Virus record (IMG/VR): IMGVR_UViG_3300047509_000355
Span: 1 to 49,253 of that record
Direction: 5' to 3' (one strand)
Origin: a virus
DNA length: 49,253 nucleotides
The notes under the pieces were generated by a model that saw only the letters and a list, made by a program, of their open reading frames with translations, did not search any database and was not told the origin of the DNA. Positions 5,266 through 48,635 of this stretch are shown one piece after another. Made by a program: the position numbers and the translations under genes. Numbering within the stretch: position 1 is the stretch's first letter; the number at the start of each line of letters is the position of its first letter.

Positions 5266-5793
5266 ATGGACGCGGAAGCAACATTCCGCAACTGGCGCCC
5301 GCTGGCTTGGAAGATAGCCGGCGGTTACATGCGAAAATTGCCGCCCGCGATCCAGCGTGACGACATTTTCGCGGCCGCTGACATGGGACTATGGCAGGGA
5401 TTGCTTCGACTCGGCGAGGAGCCCAACGACCCCAGCCAGCAGTACTACCTGATGAGTCGGATCCGCGGCGCCGTCGGCGACGAGCTCCGGCGCCAAGACT
5501 GGTCCCCGAGGCGTTCCCGCTTGAAGACGGAAGCGCCGCAGATCGTGTATGGGGATGGCGTGGTGGAGACGTTCGTGGCGGACACGGTCGAGTCGGACTT
5601 CCTCGAATTGGACAACATCCTCGACGCCATTGAGCAACTCGGCGACCGCGATCGTTGGGTCCTCGGCCAACACGTCAACGGCGCGAAGCAATGCGAGATC
5701 GCGGCCGAGCTCGCACTTTCCGAGCCCAGAATAAGCCAACTACTGGCCAGAATCCGAAAGAACCTCGGCATTCGCCTCGGTCTCGCGGCGTAG
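5266..5793 (+). CDS. FliA/WhiG-type RNA polymerase sigma factor
   Basis: 175 residues. Residues 13-86 match sigma region 2 of the sigma-28 group: LAWKIAGGYMRKLP, DDIFAAADMGLWQGLLR, then MSRIRGAVGDELRRQDW-PRR (region 2.4, which reads the -10). Residues 118-167 are region 4, ending in a helix-turn-helix (CEIAAELALSEPRISQLLARIRKNL) that would read the -35. The linker of about 45 residues is shorter than in FliA (about 239 residues in total), so region 3 seems missing or reduced. It would redirect host RNA polymerase to phage promoters; the repeated cassettes in this window are the natural candidates. Confidence 0.8.
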   Translation: MDAEATFRNWRPLAWKIAGGYMRKLPPAIQRDDIFAAADMGLWQGLLRLGEEPNDPSQQYYLMSRIRGAVGDELRRQDWSPRRSRLKTEAPQIVYGDGVVETFVADTVESDFLELDNILDAIEQLGDRDRWVLGQHVNGAKQCEIAAELALSEPRISQLLARIRKNLGIRLGLAA

Positions 5794-11645: not shown

Positions 11646-11942
11646 TCAGCGCGCGTTGAAGGACCGGTCGATCGTAGCCGAGATTGCGGTGACGAACTGC
11701 GAGAGCGGCGTCTTGCCACGGCGTGCGTCGCCGTACAGCGTACCCCGGCCCGGGTTGCCGACGCTCCACATCACCCGCTCCGCGCCAAGCGTGATGGTCA
11801 GGAAGCGCGCCGCGGTGCCGCGGCGCAGCCGTTCAACGATCAGCTGCGCGCAGCACTCGTTCGGCGTCGAGATCTCGCCCTCGAGCTTCAACGCCGCGAC
11901 GAGCTCGCGCAAAGGAACTACTTGTGGATTTTCTTCAGTCAC
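11646..11942 (-). CDS. hypothetical protein
   Basis: 98 residues from GTG 11942, in a GTGA overlap with the upstream gene. Mixed alpha/beta with LRELVAALKLEGEIS and a run of Arg-rich turns. A regulator-like shape, but no family recognised. Confidence 0.55.
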   Translation of the reverse strand: MTEENPQVVPLRELVAALKLEGEISTPNECCAQLIVERLRRGTAARFLTITLGAERVMWSVGNPGRGTLYGDARRGKTPLSQFVTAISATIDRSFNAR

Positions 11943-12313
11943 GTTTTGGGAATACTGGAAGGCGTTGAATCCTCGCTGAGTTGTTTCCACTTTCGCTTCA
12001 GCGCGTCGATGGAAACATCTGCGTATTGCGCGGCTCTTATGGAGCAATGCACAGCGTCCGAATTTAGGCCTGAACGAATGAGATTCGTCAACGCCAAATT
12101 GTAGTACTGAACCCAAGTTTGGTATTCTTGTAGCTTGTCGTCGAATTGTGAAAATTCGGGCGCGACGAATTCAGGATCCGCGACCGATTCGCTGAGGCTT
12201 CCGCGAAGAACCGCCGGAACCGAATCCACGGGCGTCGGTTTTTCGACGCCGATTTGTGAATCTCTGAGGTCGCTAAATTCATGTATGTGATTGGGCGTTT
12301 TTTGATTTTCCAA
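11939..12313 (-). CDS. hypothetical protein, possible DNA-binding C-terminus
   Basis: 124 residues from TTG 12313, chosen because AGGAG lies 5 bases upstream and no ATG exists in the frame. A further upstream TTG (12352) has no ribosome binding site. The N-terminal 55 residues are polar and probably disordered. Residues 75-115 (LTNLIRSGLNSDAVHCSIR, VSIDALKRKWKQL) resemble helix-turn-helix spacing. Confidence 0.5.
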   Translation of the reverse strand: MENQKTPNHIHEFSDLRDSQIGVEKPTPVDSVPAVLRGSLSESVADPEFVAPEFSQFDDKLQEYQTWVQYYNLALTNLIRSGLNSDAVHCSIRAAQYADVSIDALKRKWKQLSEDSTPSSIPKT

Positions 12314-12398
12314 AGGAACTCCTGTTGTTTTATTGTGTTTTAGAGCGTTCAAAATCTGAAACCGTGGAATTCAAACCCTCCGAAATTGGTCGGATTGT

Positions 12399-12713
12399 TT
12401 AGAATTTGTGAAAACTTGAAGGCGACGGAATGGCGATGTGCGAGACGAACGTGAAGCGCCGAACGAAACCGGTCGCGCCGTGAAAGTCGTTGGGCACGAC
12501 GTGCGCCGGGATCTGCGGCAGCTCGAGTTGATCATTCCAAGCTTCGAAGCCGGGCGTCGAGCGCCAGCGCATCACGCGCGCACGCCATTTCGCCTCCGGA
12601 AGGTAGTGAACCACGAAGAATTCGCCCTTTGAATCTTCAGCGCAATGAGTTGCCAAAACTTCCAAACCATCGAAGCGTTTCCAAATTCCTGGCGCAAAAA
12701 TTTCAATGTCCAT
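12399..12713 (-). CDS. hypothetical protein, first gene of the leftward operon
   Basis: 104 residues from ATG 12713 (MDIEIFAPGIWKRFDG). The frame stays open upstream to GTG 12947, giving up to 182 residues, so a longer protein is possible; the extra part is rich in Phe/Trp/His and I cannot judge it. Beta-rich with many aromatic residues. No clear ribosome binding site. Confidence 0.5.
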   Translation of the reverse strand: MDIEIFAPGIWKRFDGLEVLATHCAEDSKGEFFVVHYLPEAKWRARVMRWRSTPGFEAWNDQLELPQIPAHVVPNDFHGATGFVRRFTFVSHIAIPSPSSFHKF

Positions 12714-13059
12714 TTTTGAATCTACGCCATGCGTGCTGTTTTGGGCTGAGCCGGCGCGCGGCGGAGCTCGGGGCGCGAAATGCCATTGTTCAAAATGAGT
12801 TGTGCACAGAACGAGCCTGCATTTTACTAATTTCCATGGGTGCTCGAAAAATACCCACTGAAAAAACCGAAAATGGCGTGGACGGATGATTACAAACTTT
12901 GGGTCGCTGGCCAATTCGGCCGAGCGGTCGAACAATCTTGTATCCACAATAGTTAATGTGCTTTATTTACAAATTGATGTCAACTTTTGGAAAGTTGTCT
13001 ATGAATTGATGTAATTTGCGCCGTTCTACGTAAAAAGAGCGTGCGTTCAGTCTTTTTAG
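12714..13059. promoter_or_regulatory. divergent AT-rich control region
   Basis: Separates the leftward and rightward accessory operons. The part 12940-13045 is the most AT-rich stretch of the area. On the minus strand TTGACA (12983-12978) is a perfect -35 hexamer, but no good -10 follows at 16-18 bases; AT-rich TAAATA and TAACTA lie nearby. The rightward promoter cassette follows at 13060. An operator-like repeat sits between them. Confidence 0.5.
12972..13012. repeat. operator-like palindrome flanked by direct repeats
   Basis: CAACTTT-TGG-AAAGTTG (12981-12997) is a perfect 7-bp inverted repeat. It is bracketed by AATTGATGT at 12972-12980 and again at 13004-13012. Placed in the divergent intergenic region, this is the layout of a repressor operator; the minus-strand TTGACA overlaps the palindrome. 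Confidence 0.55.
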
Positions 13060-13089
13060 TCGACTCGTGGAAGTCTTTCGGCGTAAGCT
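13036..13089 (+). promoter_or_regulatory. phage promoter cassette, copy 4 (with leader)
   Basis: TCTTTTTAG, -35 TCGACT at 13060-13065, 18-bp spacer starting CGTGGAAGTC, -10 TAAGCT at 13084-13089. Here the ATG (13132) is 43 bases downstream with GAAAGGA as ribosome binding site, so this copy makes a normal leader. Confidence 0.6.
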
Positions 13090-13131
13090 CTCGGAGTCCT
13101 CGAAACGAAACCCCTCGAAAGGAAGATGAAG

Positions 13132-20466: not shown

Positions 20467-20772
20467 AAGGAAGTAGAGAAGGAGAACGCCCGTCCGTACG
20501 CCTACGGCCCGCGTCGAAGCCCTAAGAAGCATCGATAGCGGGCTTTCTCGCGTTCTACGGACAGAGACGAACCGCGAAGGCGCTCCCGGTAACGCTCCGG
20601 AGTTCTCGAGTTCTCCCGCTCCGGAGGCGTTCGGAAACGTTGAATTGTGCCCACCTGCCATCGGCCTGCGACCCCACGCGCGCCACGGAGCGATGGCCTT
20701 CCACCTCCGAAACGCCCAACGACAAACGCGCTTCCGGCGCCCGAATGGGGCTCGGAAAGGACATCGTTTGTT

Positions 20773-20806
20773 GCTAGCCCTATTACGTCGCTAGCCCTAT
20801 TACGTA
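20773..20806 (+). repeat. iteron pair 1-2
   Basis: Two tandem 17-mers, GCTAGCCCTATTACGTC and GCTAGCCCTATTACGTA, followed by GGCGGG. Confidence 0.8.
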
Positions 20807-20850
20807 GGCGGGTCCGTAGCGCGGTTCGCCTACGATTCGTGGGTTAGAGC

Positions 20851-20884
20851 GATAGCCCTATTACGTCACTATCCGTATTACGTA
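20851..20884 (+). repeat. iteron pair 3-4
   Basis: Two tandem 17-mers, GATAGCCCTATTACGTC and ACTATCCGTATTACGTA, again followed by GGCGGG, so the pair-plus-tail is a higher-order unit. Confidence 0.8.
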
Positions 20885-21008
20885 GGCGGGCCCTACGGAA
20901 GCGTTCCCTCTACTCGTCCCCGGCGCTCCCTCCCTACTCTACGGGCGCGCGCGTACGGGGCGGGGAGTAGGAGAGGCGGAGTCGGGAAGCGGGCCGTCCG
21001 TCGTATCC

Positions 21009-21059
21009 TATATCCCTATTACTTTAGTATACTTATTACGTCGCTATCCCTATTACGTA
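21009..21059 (+). repeat. iteron triplet 5-7
   Basis: Three tandem 17-mers: TATATCCCTATTACTTT, AGTATACTTATTACGTC, GCTATCCCTATTACGTA. Confidence 0.75.
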
Positions 21060-21073
21060 GCTAGACTAAGCGC

Positions 21074-21107
21074 GCTAGTCCTATTACGTCGCTATCCCTA
21101 TTACGTC
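21074..21107 (+). repeat. iteron pair 8-9
   Basis: GCTAGTCCTATTACGTC and GCTATCCCTATTACGTC in tandem. The second is the consensus. Confidence 0.8.
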
Positions 21108-21195
21108 GGACGGTCGGCCTACGCTTCGGCCTGTCGACCGTTAAATGGTTATTGTCGACATATACTTATGGATGTCTAGTATAGAATAGCGCAAC

Positions 21196-21224
21196 GTATT
21201 CGGCGTTACGCCGCGTCGTCCCCT
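21196..21224 (+). repeat. 29-bp direct repeat, copy A
   Basis: Identical over 29 bases to 21892-21920 inside the following gene. It contains the small hairpin CGGCG-TTA-CGCCG. Confidence 0.8.
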
Positions 21225-21542
21225 AGCGGCCTGTACAGGGGCCTGTTAGCGCTTCCAAGCTGTCGCTCGTTGCCAACGGCATTGGCAGATGGATGGAAGG
21301 CGGTGGGCCCCACTGTGGTCCAAATCGATGGCGCTTCTGTGCGTGGCGCCATGTGTGGCCCGCCCCGACTGCGCAAACTATTCGAGGGCCCAATGGTCCA
21401 AGGCCCATGCAGGTTCGTTGAGCAAAAGGCCAAAGACCATACCCATCGTAATTTTCGCCGATTTTAGTAGGCCCCAACGGCGCAAGGGAGTATGGAAACC
21501 GAGGAAACGCGACGCGCTCGCTCCCGGGATCGATTCCGCGAG

Positions 21543-21576
21543 TCAGCGCTTATTACGTCGCTAGCCGTATTACTTC
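21543..21576 (+). repeat. iteron pair 10-11
   Basis: TCAGCGCTTATTACGTC (degenerate 5' half) and GCTAGCCGTATTACTTC, in tandem, 38 bases before the next gene's ATG. Confidence 0.65.
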
Positions 21577-21613
21577 GAGCCAACTCGAAAACTTCCATAG
21601 AGGAAAGAACCGA

Positions 21614-23188
21614 ATGAAGAAGATTCAGACCGTGTACGTCGTAGAAAACGGGGCCAACTACGTGGCCACGCCCGTAGCCGAGGACGCCCGGAATCGTTTC
21701 AATGATTGGTCGAAGAACCGACTGGCCACCGCCACCAACGTCTCGCTCCGGAAGTTCGTTCCCGTCGGCTCGAAACGCGCGTCGCGCTCAGAGCCTTCCT
21801 ATCCCAACCCACCGAGACCGATGAAAAGGCTGACGGGCGGCGTGGTGTATGCCGCGTTGCTCAAAACGGCCATGTCTCCGTTTCCCGGACGGTATTCGGC
21901 GTTACGCCGCGTCGTCCCCTGGGCCGACTACGACGACCTGGACCAAAGCAACCGAATGAAGGTGATTGAGCTCGCTGCAGAATTGACGAAGGCCGTCGGC
22001 AGTGTTGACGACTCGGAAGCGGATGGCGAGGTCTGCAAGTTGTACAAAGGGAAGACAGCGTGGTATTGGGCGAGCGAACGCGACATCATCGCCAAGACAG
22101 CAGAGGAGCTCCAACGCCAACTTCATCTAACCGAAGGCCGCATCCGTGAAGCAATGCAGCCGCTGAAAAGGTTGACGGGCGAGAAGCTGTTCCAGGCGAC
22201 GACGGCGTTGAAGGGAGATCGCGCCTCGCGACTGTGGATTGCCGAATCCTCCGCTACCAAGGACCGCTACAGAGACGCGGCCGCGAAGTTGCGCGCTGAA
22301 CTGCTCGAGGGCGCGGGCGCGGAGGAAGAGGACAAGACGAAGCGCATCGCCGAGCTCGAAGACCGCGAGAAGACGTTGAAGGGTTGGCTGAAGGACATCT
22401 GCCGCCTGCTCGGCACGGACCTGAACACGGAACCGATGGGCGTGACGATGAAGTTGAAGGAGGCCTTGGACTCGCTCGCCGAGCTCCGCGCCCGGATCTT
22501 GCCCGTGGCGGATGCGGACCTGCGCGACTACCGCGAGCGAATCGCGCGCCTATTCGCGTGGCCGATGGCGAATGACGACGTGAAGACGTGGTTGGCGGGC
22601 GGTCCGACCAACGCCGGGTTCTTGAGTGACGGCGATCGGTTCGTGGAGATGCTCGTCGCCGCGTACCAGAGCGGCCAGCACAACGTGAAGGAGAAGGAAG
22701 CCGCGCTCTGGCCGACCGTTCCGCCCGCGAAGGGCTTCGAGCCCGGCGTCTTCAGCGTTTCGTTCCGCGGAGTCGCGTTGAATGCGGGTGACGAGCTCGC
22801 GTTTTCCATTCGCCCGAAGGTGCACATCGAGCAGGATGCAGACGCCGGCCCGTCCGAACAACGCGAACAAGAGATCGCGAAAAACAGCCGCTGGCGCAGC
22901 CGGTACACCGGCGAGTTGGTCGAGGTGTTCGAGGTCGACGGGAATGAGGTGAAGGTTGGCGAGCCAGACAACGCCTACGGACAGCGGTCTTGGTCCAAGC
23001 AAGACTTCAAGGCGTTGTTCTTGTCCTTCCAAGAGTGCGATGTGGCTATGTGGAATTATTTGGAATCGTTGTGGGACCAGCACAAGCTCCAGGAGTCGTC
23101 GCCCACTAAGAAGCGCTCGAAGCCCAAGAAACCGCGAAAGAGCAGAATCGCCAACAACGAGAACAAGCCGAGCCGGAGACGCCGTTGA
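21614..23188 (+). CDS. large hypothetical protein, first gene after the iterons
   Basis: 524 residues; GAGGAAAG ribosome binding site. An internal repeat is visible: PMKRLTGGVVYAALLKT (about 69-85) and PLKRLTGEKLFQATTAL (about 183-199). The middle (220-300) is a coiled coil. Residues 415-480 form a beta part (RYTGELVEVFEVDGNEVKVG). The C-terminus is very basic (KKRSKPKKPRKSR), so DNA binding is likely. Its position next to the iterons makes it a candidate iteron-binding or replication protein, but no known initiator motif is seen. Confidence 0.6.
   Translation: MKKIQTVYVVENGANYVATPVAEDARNRFNDWSKNRLATATNVSLRKFVPVGSKRASRSEPSYPNPPRPMKRLTGGVVYAALLKTAMSPFPGRYSALRRVVPWADYDDLDQSNRMKVIELAAELTKAVGSVDDSEADGEVCKLYKGKTAWYWASERDIIAKTAEELQRQLHLTEGRIREAMQPLKRLTGEKLFQATTALKGDRASRLWIAESSATKDRYRDAAAKLRAELLEGAGAEEEDKTKRIAELEDREKTLKGWLKDICRLLGTDLNTEPMGVTMKLKEALDSLAELRARILPVADADLRDYRERIARLFAWPMANDDVKTWLAGGPTNAGFLSDGDRFVEMLVAAYQSGQHNVKEKEAALWPTVPPAKGFEPGVFSVSFRGVALNAGDELAFSIRPKVHIEQDADAGPSEQREQEIAKNSRWRSRYTGELVEVFEVDGNEVKVGEPDNAYGQRSWSKQDFKALFLSFQECDVAMWNYLESLWDQHKLQESSPTKKRSKPKKPRKSRIANNENKPSRRRR
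21892..21920 (+). repeat. 29-bp direct repeat, copy B
   Basis: Second copy of the 21196-21224 sequence, here coding for part of YSALRRVVPW. The copies are 696 bp apart. Confidence 0.8.
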
Positions 23189-26779: not shown

Positions 26780-27204
26780 TGGGCGGGTATGATCGTTCGC
26801 CTCGTCCCGGGCACCGGCCGGAGAAGCGCCACCGCTGGAACCGTAAGAATCACACCAAGTCCGAAAGTGTTTGCGTTGACTGCGGTCTTCATCGGCGCGC
26901 GTTGCCGGTGACCGAAGACTCGGGCATGACGCAATATTTCATTGCCGGGAAATGGTTGAAAGTTCGTGCGCCGACCTGTCCAGGCAGAATGGGCGTCCAC
27001 ACAAGTCCGCATCCGCCAAAGGCCTCTATCGTTTTAGCAACCGGCGATCTAAATACCATCCAGCAGTGGCTAGACAAGGTTCCGGGCAGGAAGATGGATG
27101 GTGATTCGGAAGGAATCAAGTTGACACTAGCCAGCGGATTCTCGCGTGCTTTCGCATCTCTATCGGAAATTGCAGAGTTTCTTAGGAGCAAAAAGGAAGA
27201 ATGA
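26779..27204 (+). CDS. hypothetical protein with zinc motif
   Basis: 141 residues from ATG 26779; GTG 26776 is an alternative. Basic N-terminus, ESVCVDCGLHRRALP (around residue 31-45), a lone Cys further on (TCPGRMG), and a helical C-terminus. A small zinc-ribbon protein similar in pattern to phage DUFs of unknown function. Confidence 0.6.
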   Translation: MGGYDRSPRPGHRPEKRHRWNRKNHTKSESVCVDCGLHRRALPVTEDSGMTQYFIAGKWLKVRAPTCPGRMGVHTSPHPPKASIVLATGDLNTIQQWLDKVPGRKMDGDSEGIKLTLASGFSRAFASLSEIAEFLRSKKEE

Positions 27205-28103
27205 AACAGGCCATGAAAGACGAATATTGGAAGGGACAAGCCGTCGAGATCCGCCTTCGGCACGGAACGAAGGAGAGCTGGATTGGAGCTCGAGTCGATT
27301 CGCCAACGCGCCGGGGCGCGAACGTGACGAACAACTCCGACGGCCGCCAACACCATGTCTTCTTCAACGACCTGCGTCCGTTTCCGCGGCACGGGGTGCA
27401 GCGCACGACGAAGACGATCGGAACGCCGGTGCTCGATCCGAAGTGGTTGGAACAGAAGAAATTGGAAAATAGCAACATTACTTTTGATTCCAGTTACAAA
27501 ACACAAGCTGAGGAGTCGCTGCCGAAAAACGCGGTCGTTCTCTCAGTCGTCCAAAACAGCGCGCCGGCCGCCGCGCAACCCTGCGAAGCGGAACAGCCGC
27601 GCTATTCGACGCGCGGCCCGATGGGCGAACGAAAGACTCGGAATCACCATAACATCACGCCGTTCGCGGCGTTCATTCGCGCCGAACGACTCCGCCGCGC
27701 CAAGACCCAAGACCAGATGGCCGCCATCCTGAACATCGATCCGAAGCGCATCGGGCGTTTGGAGTTGGCGGTGCTACGGCCGAATGATGACGTGCTGATC
27801 GCCATTAGCGAAAGTCTGAACATAGACCTCGGCAAGTTGCTCGAGCTTCGCGACGGCACATCACTTCAGCAGCAACATGAATTGCCAATGCCGCAGATCA
27901 CACAAAAGCAGATTTCCGAGTCGTACGCCGCGGTCGCCGCAGCCGACAAGACCGTGCCCGTTCCGGCCGAGCGATCCGAGTTGGAGCAACTAGCGGCCCG
28001 ACTCGGTGAATTGAGGGCGCGCGCCGATGTTCTCACGGCGGAGCTCGCGCCGATCGGCGTCGAGATCGAATCCATCAAGAACAAGATCAAGGAGCAACTG
28101 TGA
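27201..28103 (+). CDS. XRE-family helix-turn-helix regulator
   Basis: 300 residues. N-terminal beta domain (1-75), disordered linker, then an HTH_XRE/Cro-C1 domain at about 153-215: FAAFIRAERLRRAKTQDQMA, AAILNIDPKRIGRLELAV, LIAISESLNIDLGKLLEL. The C-terminus (255-300) is a coiled coil that could dimerise. This is the only C1-like protein in the window, and it lies just upstream of the second iteron cluster, so it is a candidate repressor or iteron binder. No S24 peptidase domain is present. Confidence 0.7.
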   Translation: MKQAMKDEYWKGQAVEIRLRHGTKESWIGARVDSPTRRGANVTNNSDGRQHHVFFNDLRPFPRHGVQRTTKTIGTPVLDPKWLEQKKLENSNITFDSSYKTQAEESLPKNAVVLSVVQNSAPAAAQPCEAEQPRYSTRGPMGERKTRNHHNITPFAAFIRAERLRRAKTQDQMAAILNIDPKRIGRLELAVLRPNDDVLIAISESLNIDLGKLLELRDGTSLQQQHELPMPQITQKQISESYAAVAAADKTVPVPAERSELEQLAARLGELRARADVLTAELAPIGVEIESIKNKIKEQL

Positions 28104-28498: not shown

Positions 28499-28700
28499 CA
28501 ACTAGCGCGACGTAATACAGATACACGTTGGTTGTGGAAGTCGTTTTTGGGTGCATTTTCATCGTCGAAACCCAAGCTATCGATATTACTACCCACAAAT
28601 ATCCGTATTACGTCGCACTTTTAACCGATTACTTCGCTATCGATATTCCTTCGACTCAGCCGCATGAACCGTCGGCGCCTAACCTATTAAAAGCACACCC
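28499..28700. repeat. second iteron cluster with degenerate promoter
   Basis: 17-mers related to GCTATCCCTATTACGTC: an inverted copy around 28508-28524 (GACGTAATACAGATACA), then 28576-28592, 28598-28614, 28619-28635 (only the last 9 bases match well) and 28636-28652. A TTGGTT-GTGGAAGTC promoter-like core sits at 28528-28556. Confidence 0.65.
28528..28556 (+). promoter_or_regulatory. degenerate promoter cassette, copy 10
   Basis: TTGGTT (28528-28533), 17-bp spacer GTGGAAGTCGTTTTTGG, GTGCAT at the -10 place. The next bases TTTCATC resemble the TTTCATG of copy 7 with the start codon changed. Probably a decayed copy. Confidence 0.35.
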
Positions 28701-28961
28701 ATGGATTTGAAGACCGCTTTATACGACAATTTTGCTCGATCTGATCAAGTTGAGCACACGTGCATCAGCTCTCGCGCCTGGTGCCTCGGATGCGCGGAGG
28801 TAGTCCGGCGTTGGAATGCGCAGCGCCCGTCGAACGGCACTCTGGACGAGGCGACGAAACTGTTGATCAACTACATGTTGGAGCGTGGACCTATCGCGCC
28901 GAGCTCCGAGATGAGGCATTTTGTTCGTCAGGTCCTGGTTACCTTGATCAAGTCGCCGTGA
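28701..28961 (+). CDS. hypothetical protein
   Basis: 86 residues. TCISSRAWCLGCAEV (20-34) may be a zinc knuckle; the rest is helical. No ribosome binding site of note (AAAAGCACACCC). GTGA overlap with the next gene. Confidence 0.55.
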   Translation: MDLKTALYDNFARSDQVEHTCISSRAWCLGCAEVVRRWNAQRPSNGTLDEATKLLINYMLERGPIAPSSEMRHFVRQVLVTLIKSP

Positions 28962-29473: not shown

Positions 29474-29909
29474 GCTTCGGCAACAGATCGCCTCACCGTC
29501 GGACGTGGGCGCAATCGCGAAGCGCGAGGGCTTGCCGTACATGACCGTGTATCGGTTGGCCACCGGCGAGAGTTTCAAAAAGCTCGGCTCCGCGCCGGTG
29601 GAGCGGGCGTCGAAGACGAAGATCACGCCCGAGATCCGAGCCTGGATCATGGACGTGAAGAAGCGTAAAAACTGGACCAACGTCCGCTTGGCCCGGAAGC
29701 TCTCCGTCACGCCGATCACGATCGCCCGAATAATCATGGAAGAACGAATGGTCTTGGCAGCGCGCGTCCAGTCCATGTTTCTAAGCAGCGGCTCGAACAG
29801 CGCGGCACGTAAATCGTTCGGTCTAAACAACATCGAAGTGGAGGCGTTGCTCGCGCTCGCGACGGAACGGCCCCTGCCGGAAAAACTGAAAGGACGGATT
29901 GAAGAATGA
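29436..29909 (+). CDS. helix-turn-helix DNA-binding protein
   Basis: 157 residues from ATG 29436 (MRRAPLSPERAAELRQQ). The frame is open from 29364 but would overlap the nuclease gene by 110 bases. Two HTH-like segments: VGAIAKREGLPYMTVYRLATG (split here, residues about 23-43) and NVRLARKLSVTPITIARIIM (about 76-95). Probably a small regulator or a terminase small-subunit-like DNA binder. Confidence 0.55.
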   Translation: MRRAPLSPERAAELRQQIASPSDVGAIAKREGLPYMTVYRLATGESFKKLGSAPVERASKTKITPEIRAWIMDVKKRKNWTNVRLARKLSVTPITIARIIMEERMVLAARVQSMFLSSGSNSAARKSFGLNNIEVEALLALATERPLPEKLKGRIEE

Positions 29910-32317: not shown

Positions 32318-32406
32318 CGAAGTTAGCATATAGGCAATGCACCTCTTTCGTCGGAGCTCCGGCCGAAGAGGACCGATGCTCGGTTCGACTCCGAGCACTT
32401 CGTCCA
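32318..32406 (+). ncRNA. tRNA-like RNA with CCA end but no normal anticodon arm
   Basis: 89 nt. Acceptor CGAAGT (32318-32323) pairs with ACTTCG (32397-32402); U and CCA follow. T8 A9, D arm GCAT-ATAGGCA-ATGC with the GG of a D-loop, T arm CTCGG-TTCGACT-CCGAG with TTCGA consensus. Between them, instead of a 5-bp stem and 7-base loop, is a long hairpin CCTCTT...AAGAGG with loop AGCT. No anticodon can be named. Either a decayed class II tRNA or a tRNA mimic. Confidence 0.5.
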
Positions 32407-46127: not shown

Positions 46128-48635
46128 ATGGCCAGCTCGGTTCGGCACCAGAACGCCTCCTACAGCAGCGCTAGCAATCTTACGATTACTGGCGATTTTA
46201 CATACCATTGGGCAGTAAAGCCGAACGCGGGTGAATACGGCGACGGAACCAATGACCACGGTCTCGCCGGGATGGGGTCGACGGGCGGCGCGTCCGAGGG
46301 CATCGGCATCTTCGTATTCTCCGGATCTAACACACAATTAGACACGTCTGTTTTCCGGAATGGGGGTGCGGAATTCCAGTCTGCAGTGATCGCCACCGGC
46401 AGCTCGACGGCCTGGGTATTCATAGCCGTCCGACACCTTTCCGGCTCCGCCAGCTACACGGTCAGCTGGCGTTTTGAGAATCAGACGACTTGGACCAGCA
46501 CGACGCTAACACTCTCAACGCAGATCGTCTCGGCCGGCTCACTGTTCATCGGAACCGATCAATTCACAGAGAATTGCTTGGATTCGGACACGGCAGGTTT
46601 TTTCTGTCAACAGGTCCGAATGTCGGACGCTGCGTTGCTCACGGCGTCTCAGAATGCTCGGACGACGGCCCCCGCCGGGACCAATCTCCATTGGCTAAAG
46701 GAAATCGACTCGGCCACCGCTGTAAACAACGGCGGAACGGCTGGGAATTGGACATCGACAGGCACTCTTTCGACGGCCGCTACCGAGCCCGTCGAAACGC
46801 TCACGCCCGCCAGCAATCCCGTGCTGCTCGTTCAACAGCGGGCGAAGGGCTTCCCGCCACGCGCGCCGATGCCGGGTATCAACCGCCTCGGCATCGGATT
46901 GTATGCGGCTCCGCCCCCGCCCGTCGCGCCGATCGTCGTGGCGACGCCGATTCCGTTTCTGCCATTGATGCAACCGCGCGCGGCCGGCGGTCTATTCCGG
47001 CAACCCGCCCCGCCCATTATTACGTTGGGCATGCTGCCGCTCGCGGCAGCGCCGCCGCCCGGATCTTCTGCGGCGGTAGCTTGGACGCCTGACGTCAATG
47101 CCTCGTTCGTCGGCAACTTGATCATTTCGGCGGGCTTCGCCGCCGCGCCGCAGGCCGCGTCCAGTCTCGTCGGCGCTGAAACGGCGGCGGCGGTCGCGAC
47201 TTCGACGCCGCAGGCCGCTACTTCATTGGTCGGCGCGGAGCAGGCCGCTACAACATTGGCTTCGACGCCGCAGGCGGCCACTTCATTGGTCGGCGCGGAG
47301 CAGGCCGCGTCGTCGATGGCTTCGGCACCGACCGCAGTCTTTTCTTGCGTTGGAGCGGAGCTCGCCACTTGCTCTGTTTCGTCGACACCGACGGCCACTT
47401 GCTCATTCGCCAGCCTAGCGGGCGCGAGTGCTACCTTCTCAGCCACGCCGCAGGCCGCGCTTTCCGTCGTCGGCGCGGAGACGGCATCCGGATCGACGGC
47501 CTGCACGCCGACGGCCGTCTTCAGCGCGATCGGCGCAGAGCAAGCAACGTCCGTTCTGGCTTCGACGCCGATCGTCAATTCATCACTCGTCGGCGCCGAG
47601 CTAGCCACGGCCACCTGCACATCGACGCCGACGAGCGCCTTGGTCATCTCAGGCGCTGAAAAAGCTACATCTTCGTTGTCAACGACGCCAACCGTGACGA
47701 CGGCGATCAACGTACTGGCGATCGACTCCGCCACGCTCGCTTCCACGCCCCAAGCCGCAGTTTCCAACGTTGGAGCAGAATCGGCCGCCGCCGCGCTTTC
47801 CTCCGTTCCCAATGCAACGGCTGCTATGGTCGGCGCGGAGCGCGCGGACACGCAGCTCTTGGCAACGCCGACCGCTCTCACGGCGTTCGAGACGAGCGGC
47901 GCAGCTCCGACAACGATGTCGCCGACACCGTCGGCGACCTTCGCACCCGTCGGCGCCGAAAAGGCCTCCACCAGTCTGACGGCGACGCCGACGGCGTCCG
48001 CAGCTCTAGTCGCGAACGCGATCGATTCGACAACGTTGAGCGCGACGCCAGCGGCGGCGATGGCCCCGGCCGGGGCCGAACAGGTTGCCGCTCCGTTCTT
48101 GTCCACGCCCACCGCTGATTCTGCCTTGGCCTCGGCGAGCGGTAGCGGAGCGGCTTGGACAGCGGCGCCCGTAGCAGCGACGGCGTTGGCAGCGGCCGAA
48201 CGGGCTTCTTCAACGCTCAATTCAACGCCGCAAGCCGCCGGCGCATTCGTTCCGACCGCCGTCACCGCCGGGTCCCTAGCGAGTAGTCCGAGTGCCGCGC
48301 TCGCAGCTGTGGGCGCGATGATCAAGGCTGTGCAGATGCTGTCGGACGCCCCGGCAACGTTCGACGCCCGATCCGGCAGCGGGGCGTCGTCCGGATTTAC
48401 GTCCGCGCCCGATTCGTTGTTCAACGTGTACGGCTTCGCGCTGTTCAGCTGCTCATTCCACGCGGCGCCGACCGCGAATTTCAACGGGGTGTCCGGGAAT
48501 GGGCTGTCGAGTGCGTTCCAATCGCGACCAACGTCCAGCGTAGACTTCCGAGGTCCCGCGCATCACGCACGCGCGCGCTTCGTTCCCGTCAACGCCCACG
48601 CACCCACCGTCAGCTTCACCAGGATCAAACCATGA
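46128..48635 (+). CDS. LamG-like plus 20-residue-repeat adhesin-like virion protein
   Basis: 835 residues. Residues 1-205 form a second LamG/concanavalin-like domain (FTYHWAVKPNAGEYGDGTND, WVFIAVRHLSGSASYTVSW). A Pro-rich segment follows (240-330). From about 338 to 815 there are roughly 24 units of 20 residues with the pattern TPQAATSLVGAEQAATTLAS. They are Ala/Ser/Thr-rich with Gly-Ala-Glu in the centre. Such repeats can form a long beta-solenoid fibre. The last 30 residues are basic. Overlaps the next gene by ATGA. Confidence 0.65.
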   Translation: MASSVRHQNASYSSASNLTITGDFTYHWAVKPNAGEYGDGTNDHGLAGMGSTGGASEGIGIFVFSGSNTQLDTSVFRNGGAEFQSAVIATGSSTAWVFIAVRHLSGSASYTVSWRFENQTTWTSTTLTLSTQIVSAGSLFIGTDQFTENCLDSDTAGFFCQQVRMSDAALLTASQNARTTAPAGTNLHWLKEIDSATAVNNGGTAGNWTSTGTLSTAATEPVETLTPASNPVLLVQQRAKGFPPRAPMPGINRLGIGLYAAPPPPVAPIVVATPIPFLPLMQPRAAGGLFRQPAPPIITLGMLPLAAAPPPGSSAAVAWTPDVNASFVGNLIISAGFAAAPQAASSLVGAETAAAVATSTPQAATSLVGAEQAATTLASTPQAATSLVGAEQAASSMASAPTAVFSCVGAELATCSVSSTPTATCSFASLAGASATFSATPQAALSVVGAETASGSTACTPTAVFSAIGAEQATSVLASTPIVNSSLVGAELATATCTSTPTSALVISGAEKATSSLSTTPTVTTAINVLAIDSATLASTPQAAVSNVGAESAAAALSSVPNATAAMVGAERADTQLLATPTALTAFETSGAAPTTMSPTPSATFAPVGAEKASTSLTATPTASAALVANAIDSTTLSATPAAAMAPAGAEQVAAPFLSTPTADSALASASGSGAAWTAAPVAATALAAAERASSTLNSTPQAAGAFVPTAVTAGSLASSPSAALAAVGAMIKAVQMLSDAPATFDARSGSGASSGFTSAPDSLFNVYGFALFSCSFHAAPTANFNGVSGNGLSSAFQSRPTSSVDFRGPAHHARARFVPVNAHAPTVSFTRIKP
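47145..48560 (+). repeat. 60-bp coding tandem repeats
   Basis: About 24 degenerate 60-bp units encoding the 20-residue motif. The first three (about 47145-47320) are nearly identical at DNA level (CCGCAGGCCGC, GTCGGCGCGGAGCAGGCCGC); later ones diverge. The repeats create a false long open frame on the minus strand. Confidence 0.7.

Follow-up and report, generated by a model that had tools for sequence, protein, structure and literature searches.

Eleven tandem 17-bp units occupy a gene-free region in a 49,253-bp IMG/VR virus record (the window, that is, the whole stretch of DNA analysed). On balance, this array probably serves as the chief control region for a small regulon of the phage. Read from their sequence, the units would be asymmetric sites bound by a DNA-binding protein of the phage itself, through which the starts of rightward gene blocks are controlled. 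Several observations count in favour of this reading: the array is far above chance; a second cluster of units lies at 28.5 kb; a syntenic relative carries a drifted form of the motif in the same layout; weaker outlying sites (satellites) are intergenic and precede further gene blocks, the replication operon among them; and a gene for an XRE-type helix-turn-helix protein is shared between the two phages. By class, the array is a phage regulatory repeat array, a known kind of element.

The array and its satellites in the window

The control region (20467-21613; 1,147 bp) lies between two rightward gene blocks. Codon use marks it as gene-free: its three overlapping ORFs score -18 to -27, and none has phage-like codon use. 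The original prediction had called it the longest gene-free stretch of about 1.15 kb; the absence of genes is confirmed, while the superlative is not strictly correct, as 11913-13125 (1,213 bp) is also empty in the gene calls. The latter stretch has lower GC (about 50%) and no convincing gene; a 182-aa minus-strand ORF there has no family match. A nucleotide search of phage records with the control region gave no real match.

The units read GCTA[G/T]CCCTATTACGTC, all lie on the plus strand and fall into groups of two, two, three, two and two. They start at 20773 and 20790; 20851 and 20868; 21009, 21026 and 21043; 21074 and 21091; and 21543 and 21560. Spacing within groups is exactly 17 bp, and start-to-start distances between groups are 61, 141, 31 and 452 bp. 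Pair 1 (20773-20806) and pair 2 (20851-20884) are each followed by GGCGGG, directly after units 20790 and 20868, as had been noticed at the outset. In each case a short inverted repeat includes the hexamer or lies directly beside it (20803-20834 and 20878-20900, respectively). The triplet spans 21009-21059; pair 3 (21074-21107) precedes another inverted repeat (21110-21141); pair 4 (21543-21576) ends 38 bp upstream of the start codon at 21614. The first unit of pair 4, at 21543, is weak (15 bits), and the remaining array units score 22-29 bits. The 17-mer has little dyad symmetry.

The arrangement described in the original prediction, eleven units on one strand at 17-bp spacing, is thus reproduced as pairs and one triplet, far above chance. 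With up to three mismatches, GCTATCCCTATTACGTC matches eight of the 11 array units and nine places in the whole window (0.03 expected); TATTACGT occurs 13 times in the window (0.18 expected). An AT-rich segment (21139-21188; 70% AT over 50 bp) adjoins the array after its main group; at this scale the window has just three further spots of equal AT content.

Two further features of the control region were recorded in passing. A 29-bp exact direct repeat, GTATTCGGCGTTACGCCGCGTCGTCCCCT, is present at 21196-21224 and again at 21892-21920, within the coding sequence of the following gene. GATC is scarce in the control regions of both phages, at 0.9 per kb in the window (20467-21613) and 1.7 in the relative described below (90827-93171), against 5.0 and 4.2 per kb in their other intergenic DNA.

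The motif extends beyond the array. Counting it over the window upheld the expected enrichment in the array and contradicted confinement to it, as four more units are found at 28509-28652. They lie within the gap 28499-28957, which separates genes 27201 and 28100 from the gene block that follows, and comprise an inverted unit on the minus strand (28509-28525; TGTATCTGTATTACGTC), a degenerate unit (28576-28592; GCTATCGATATTACTAC), a strong unit (28598-28614; AATATCCGTATTACGTC) and another degenerate unit 49 bp upstream of ORF 28701 (28636-28652; GCTATCGATATTCCTTC), the last three on the plus strand. A matrix built from the eleven array units only gives three of these four units at least 12 bits, with 0.26 such sites expected in the whole window. 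Among 1000 column-permuted matrices, seven give as many intergenic sites of at least 12 bits and one equals the best score. The window satellites form this one cluster only.

The counterpart in a syntenic relative

The window is a fragment of a large tailed phage; its genes include those for the large terminase subunit (32893) and the portal protein (34377). Just upstream of the terminase gene, at 32318-32406, ARAGORN predicts a tRNA-like gene whose anticodon is undetermined (tcgt). The terminase has its relatives in other IMG/VR contigs; its matches in named phage records are remote (23-28% identity among the matches listed), as are those in bacterial genomes (at most 39% identity, in metagenome bins). 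The closest long relative found is IMGVR_UViG_3300012984_000014 (G009; 116,461 bp), whose large terminase is 72% identical; its matches to window genes extend across the whole window, with gene order largely conserved. G009 encodes a DnaB-like helicase, a DnaC-like helicase loader, a sigma-like factor and a Thy1-type thymidylate synthase; other proteins are read from their sequences as a putative primase and a putative DNA polymerase III alpha subunit. The window has a small sigma-70-like protein of its own (5266-5793; regions 2 and 4 weakly matched), different from the sigma-like protein at 46412 in G009. Near the end of the window, two large overlapping ORFs on opposite strands (46128-48635; 835 and 550 aa) contain internal 30- and 60-bp tandem repeats; their codon use favours the minus strand, and the neighbouring genes favour the plus strand.

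G009 carries an array in the corresponding position, flanked by its counterparts of genes 18532 and 27201. The gap there measures 2,345 bp, the longest between called genes, and is defined by gene calls alone. Nine clear units of 16 bp lie in it, eight of them in 92584-92858 and the ninth at 91688; their word, TAACCCTATTACCCTA, is found on either strand and at varied spacing. The two words have the core CCCTATTAC in common and differ in their second half. Neither unit spacing nor orientation is kept between the phages, and outside the units a local alignment of the two control regions gave no similarity that clearly exceeds chance. An AT-rich 50-bp segment lies at 92608; at a scale of 30-50 bp, few places in either genome are as AT-rich as the stretches by the two arrays.

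Sites in G009 are strongly intergenic. With a matrix from its array only, all 17 sites of at least 8 bits fall outside called genes, and intergenic DNA makes up 14.6% of the genome. Four out-of-array sites reach 12 bits or more (37851, 37864, 102452 and 102868; 0.29 expected), all of them intergenic; of 1000 column-permuted matrices, one equals this result in intergenic DNA. Site 37864 ends 23 bp upstream of start codon 37903, where a replication operon begins that also encodes the helicase loader, the DnaB-like helicase and the primase-like protein. Sites 102452 and 102868 come before ORFs 102476 and 102993, and satellites lie 9 and 56 bp upstream of these two ORFs. A relaxed matrix, partly trained on satellites, adds sites at 96027, 102437 and 102922, and its scan places a site 8 bp upstream of ORF 96050. 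Three satellites (102452, 102868 and 102922) are oriented against the genes downstream of them, so the satellites are not promoters as such.

The pattern is present in these two phages only: other terminase relatives have no such non-coding array or are short fragments, and in IMG/VR more than one copy of TAACCCTATTACCCTA was found only in G009. A search of IMG/VR for the tandem core pattern returned more than 100 contigs, mostly unrelated and many with short-period repeats; a DNA methyltransferase common to some of them was judged coincidental.

Candidate binding proteins

Two genes had been proposed to encode the binder of the 17-mer, and they fared differently. The XRE-type protein encoded at 27201-28103 (plus strand; Pfam HTH_3, residues 159-212) is the likeliest candidate, judged from position and conservation. 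Its gene is the only one between the two site clusters that is common to the window and G009 (98986-100110; phmmer 8.8e-14). The helix-turn-helix region is similar in both proteins, and the recognition-helix segment differs (DPKRIGRLE in one, SAPVLSRLE in the other); such a difference would be expected if the XRE protein binds words that have drifted. The protein has one recognised helix-turn-helix and a weak PHROG match to 'transcriptional repressor', and its only relative in the collections searched is that of G009. Its structure model has a mean pLDDT of 53.5, a confidence insufficient for searching folds, and hints at a small beta barrel at the N terminus and a coiled coil at the C terminus.

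The gene directly after the array (21614-23188, plus strand) does encode the large basic protein foreseen, with 524 aa, a net charge of +11 and no known family. It is a poor candidate binder, because no relative was found in any collection searched. An alternative to the XRE protein is a second helix-turn-helix protein beyond the second cluster, encoded at 29505 (105408 in G009); its structure model (mean pLDDT 62.9) is also too low for a fold search.

Regulatory model and competing explanations

The original prediction had offered three readings of the array: iteron origin, centromere-like site and repressor stoperator. The operator-like reading fits best, because the motif recurs intergenically at the heads of other gene blocks in both the window and its syntenic relative. 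The origin is a possible reading, and the centromere-like site has no support.

In the proposed regulon, the sites would act at the DNA level as operators, as suggested by their facing both towards and away from the genes downstream of them. The binder would be the XRE protein encoded between the two clusters or another phage DNA-binding protein. The rightward block that begins at 21614 may be controlled chiefly through the array, and the outlying sites would bring other blocks under the same control. Several tandem copies could favour cooperative loading, such that the array would respond first and the satellites later; the effect of binding might be repression or activation. The enrichment of the motif in intergenic DNA before gene blocks and operons, near gene starts, is common to the window and G009.

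Several points count against the model. The pattern is limited to two phages, and the window satellites make up one cluster. With placement ignored, 5-7% of column-permuted matrices equal the raw count of sites outside the array. The sites of XRE proteins usually have dyad symmetry, of which the 17-mer has little. A classical repressor role is also not evident, as neither a tyrosine integrase nor another clear lysogeny module was found. Finally, an origin could likewise carry operator-like outlying sites.

An iteron-type replication origin is the main competitor, possible and yet rather doubtful. An initiator would load on the tandem units, melt the adjoining AT-rich DNA and recruit the phage helicase loader, the DnaB-like helicase and the primase; the outlying units would be control or titration sites, like the two iteron sets of plasmid P1. 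Iteron origins with a Rep_3-type initiator have tandem direct repeats of 17-22 bp in non-coding DNA, as the array does. The iterons of plasmid/phage P1 and of F-type origins are 17-19 bp tandem direct repeats, a first set being at the origin and a second in another place. The array resembles them: tandem direct repeats, here in the largest or second-largest gap, occur in two sets, and in both phages the candidate binder gene lies between the array and the second set. AT-rich stretches adjoin both arrays, though promoters are AT-rich too. With its helicase, loader, putative primase and polymerase III alpha, G009 must have an origin somewhere. Against this stands the GC skew, suggested as a check for an origin, which does not change sign at the array of the 116-kb G009. 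There is no match to the Rep_3 initiator (PF01051) in the window or G009, a difference from the P1 and F-type systems, and no DnaA box (TTWTNCACA) in either sequence. The changed spacing and orientation of the units argue in the same direction, and outlying sites just before gene starts, including those ahead of unrelated operons in G009, are not explained by an origin.

A bolder combination of the two ideas is unlikely. One XRE protein would start replication at the array and, through the outlying sites, time the early and replication operons, in a phage without a recognised lysogeny module, the word having drifted together with the protein between the two syntenic phages.

Known systems of repeated phage sites help to place the array. 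The SPBRE of Bacillus prophage SPbeta is a 15-bp motif in several intergenic promoter regions, and its sites were known as intergenic repeats long before their binder, MrpR, was shown; MrpR has a tyrosine-recombinase fold and keeps lysogeny (PMC10516654). As there, a short repeated element in several intergenic regions was seen by sequence first; the differences are the tandem array, the few outlying sites and the XRE candidate, whereas MrpR is a lysogeny regulator. The likeness to the start-associated sequences of cluster K phages is looser. Those are 13 bp long including the ribosome-binding site, lie near the start codons of non-structural genes, mostly in one orientation, and form no array (PMC3203893), whereas here there is an array, with both orientations in G009.

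An operator or stoperator system for the immunity repressor of a temperate phage, as in SPbeta or cluster A mycobacteriophages, seems improbable. The latter (e.g. L5 and TipsytheTRex) are temperate and have more than 20 asymmetric 13-bp sites genome-wide, oriented with transcription (PMC9283540). The asymmetric repeated sites in promoter or intergenic DNA and the repressor-like helix-turn-helix protein, here a candidate, recall them loosely. A repressor that binds as a monomer through two DNA-binding domains is a further trait of the cluster A system; the 27201 protein has one recognised helix-turn-helix. However, neither a tyrosine integrase (PF00589), the one integrase type searched for, nor the partition genes ParA and ParB have a match in the window or in its 116-kb relative, and the distance of the terminase relatives in bacterial genomes also speaks against a temperate phage. 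The units are tandem 17-mers concentrated at one main locus, and their mixed orientation in G009 is independent of transcription. On the features tested, with sites neither spread through the genome nor oriented with transcription, the array is not a member of the stoperator family.

The remaining explanations are very improbable. Some partition sites are typically arrays of short direct repeats, which would suit the centromere-like site of a plasmid-state prophage, but neither ParB (PF02195) nor ParA (PF13614) has a match in the window or G009, and sites recurring before other operons are not needed for partition. A structured or regulatory RNA from the region, to which the short inverted repeat after each of three unit pairs might point, is hardly credible, given folding no better than shuffles (z -0.28 for the array; z 0.14 for the stretch after it, 21108-21545), no Rfam match in the window, and units on both strands in G009.

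In large environmental phages that bring their own replication machinery, little beyond the structural genes is annotated. The conserved array, a candidate binder that can be named and a relative with a changed word together offer a direct route to gene timing or the start of replication in such phages. The window and G009 form a natural pair for studying the joint change of a regulator and its sites.
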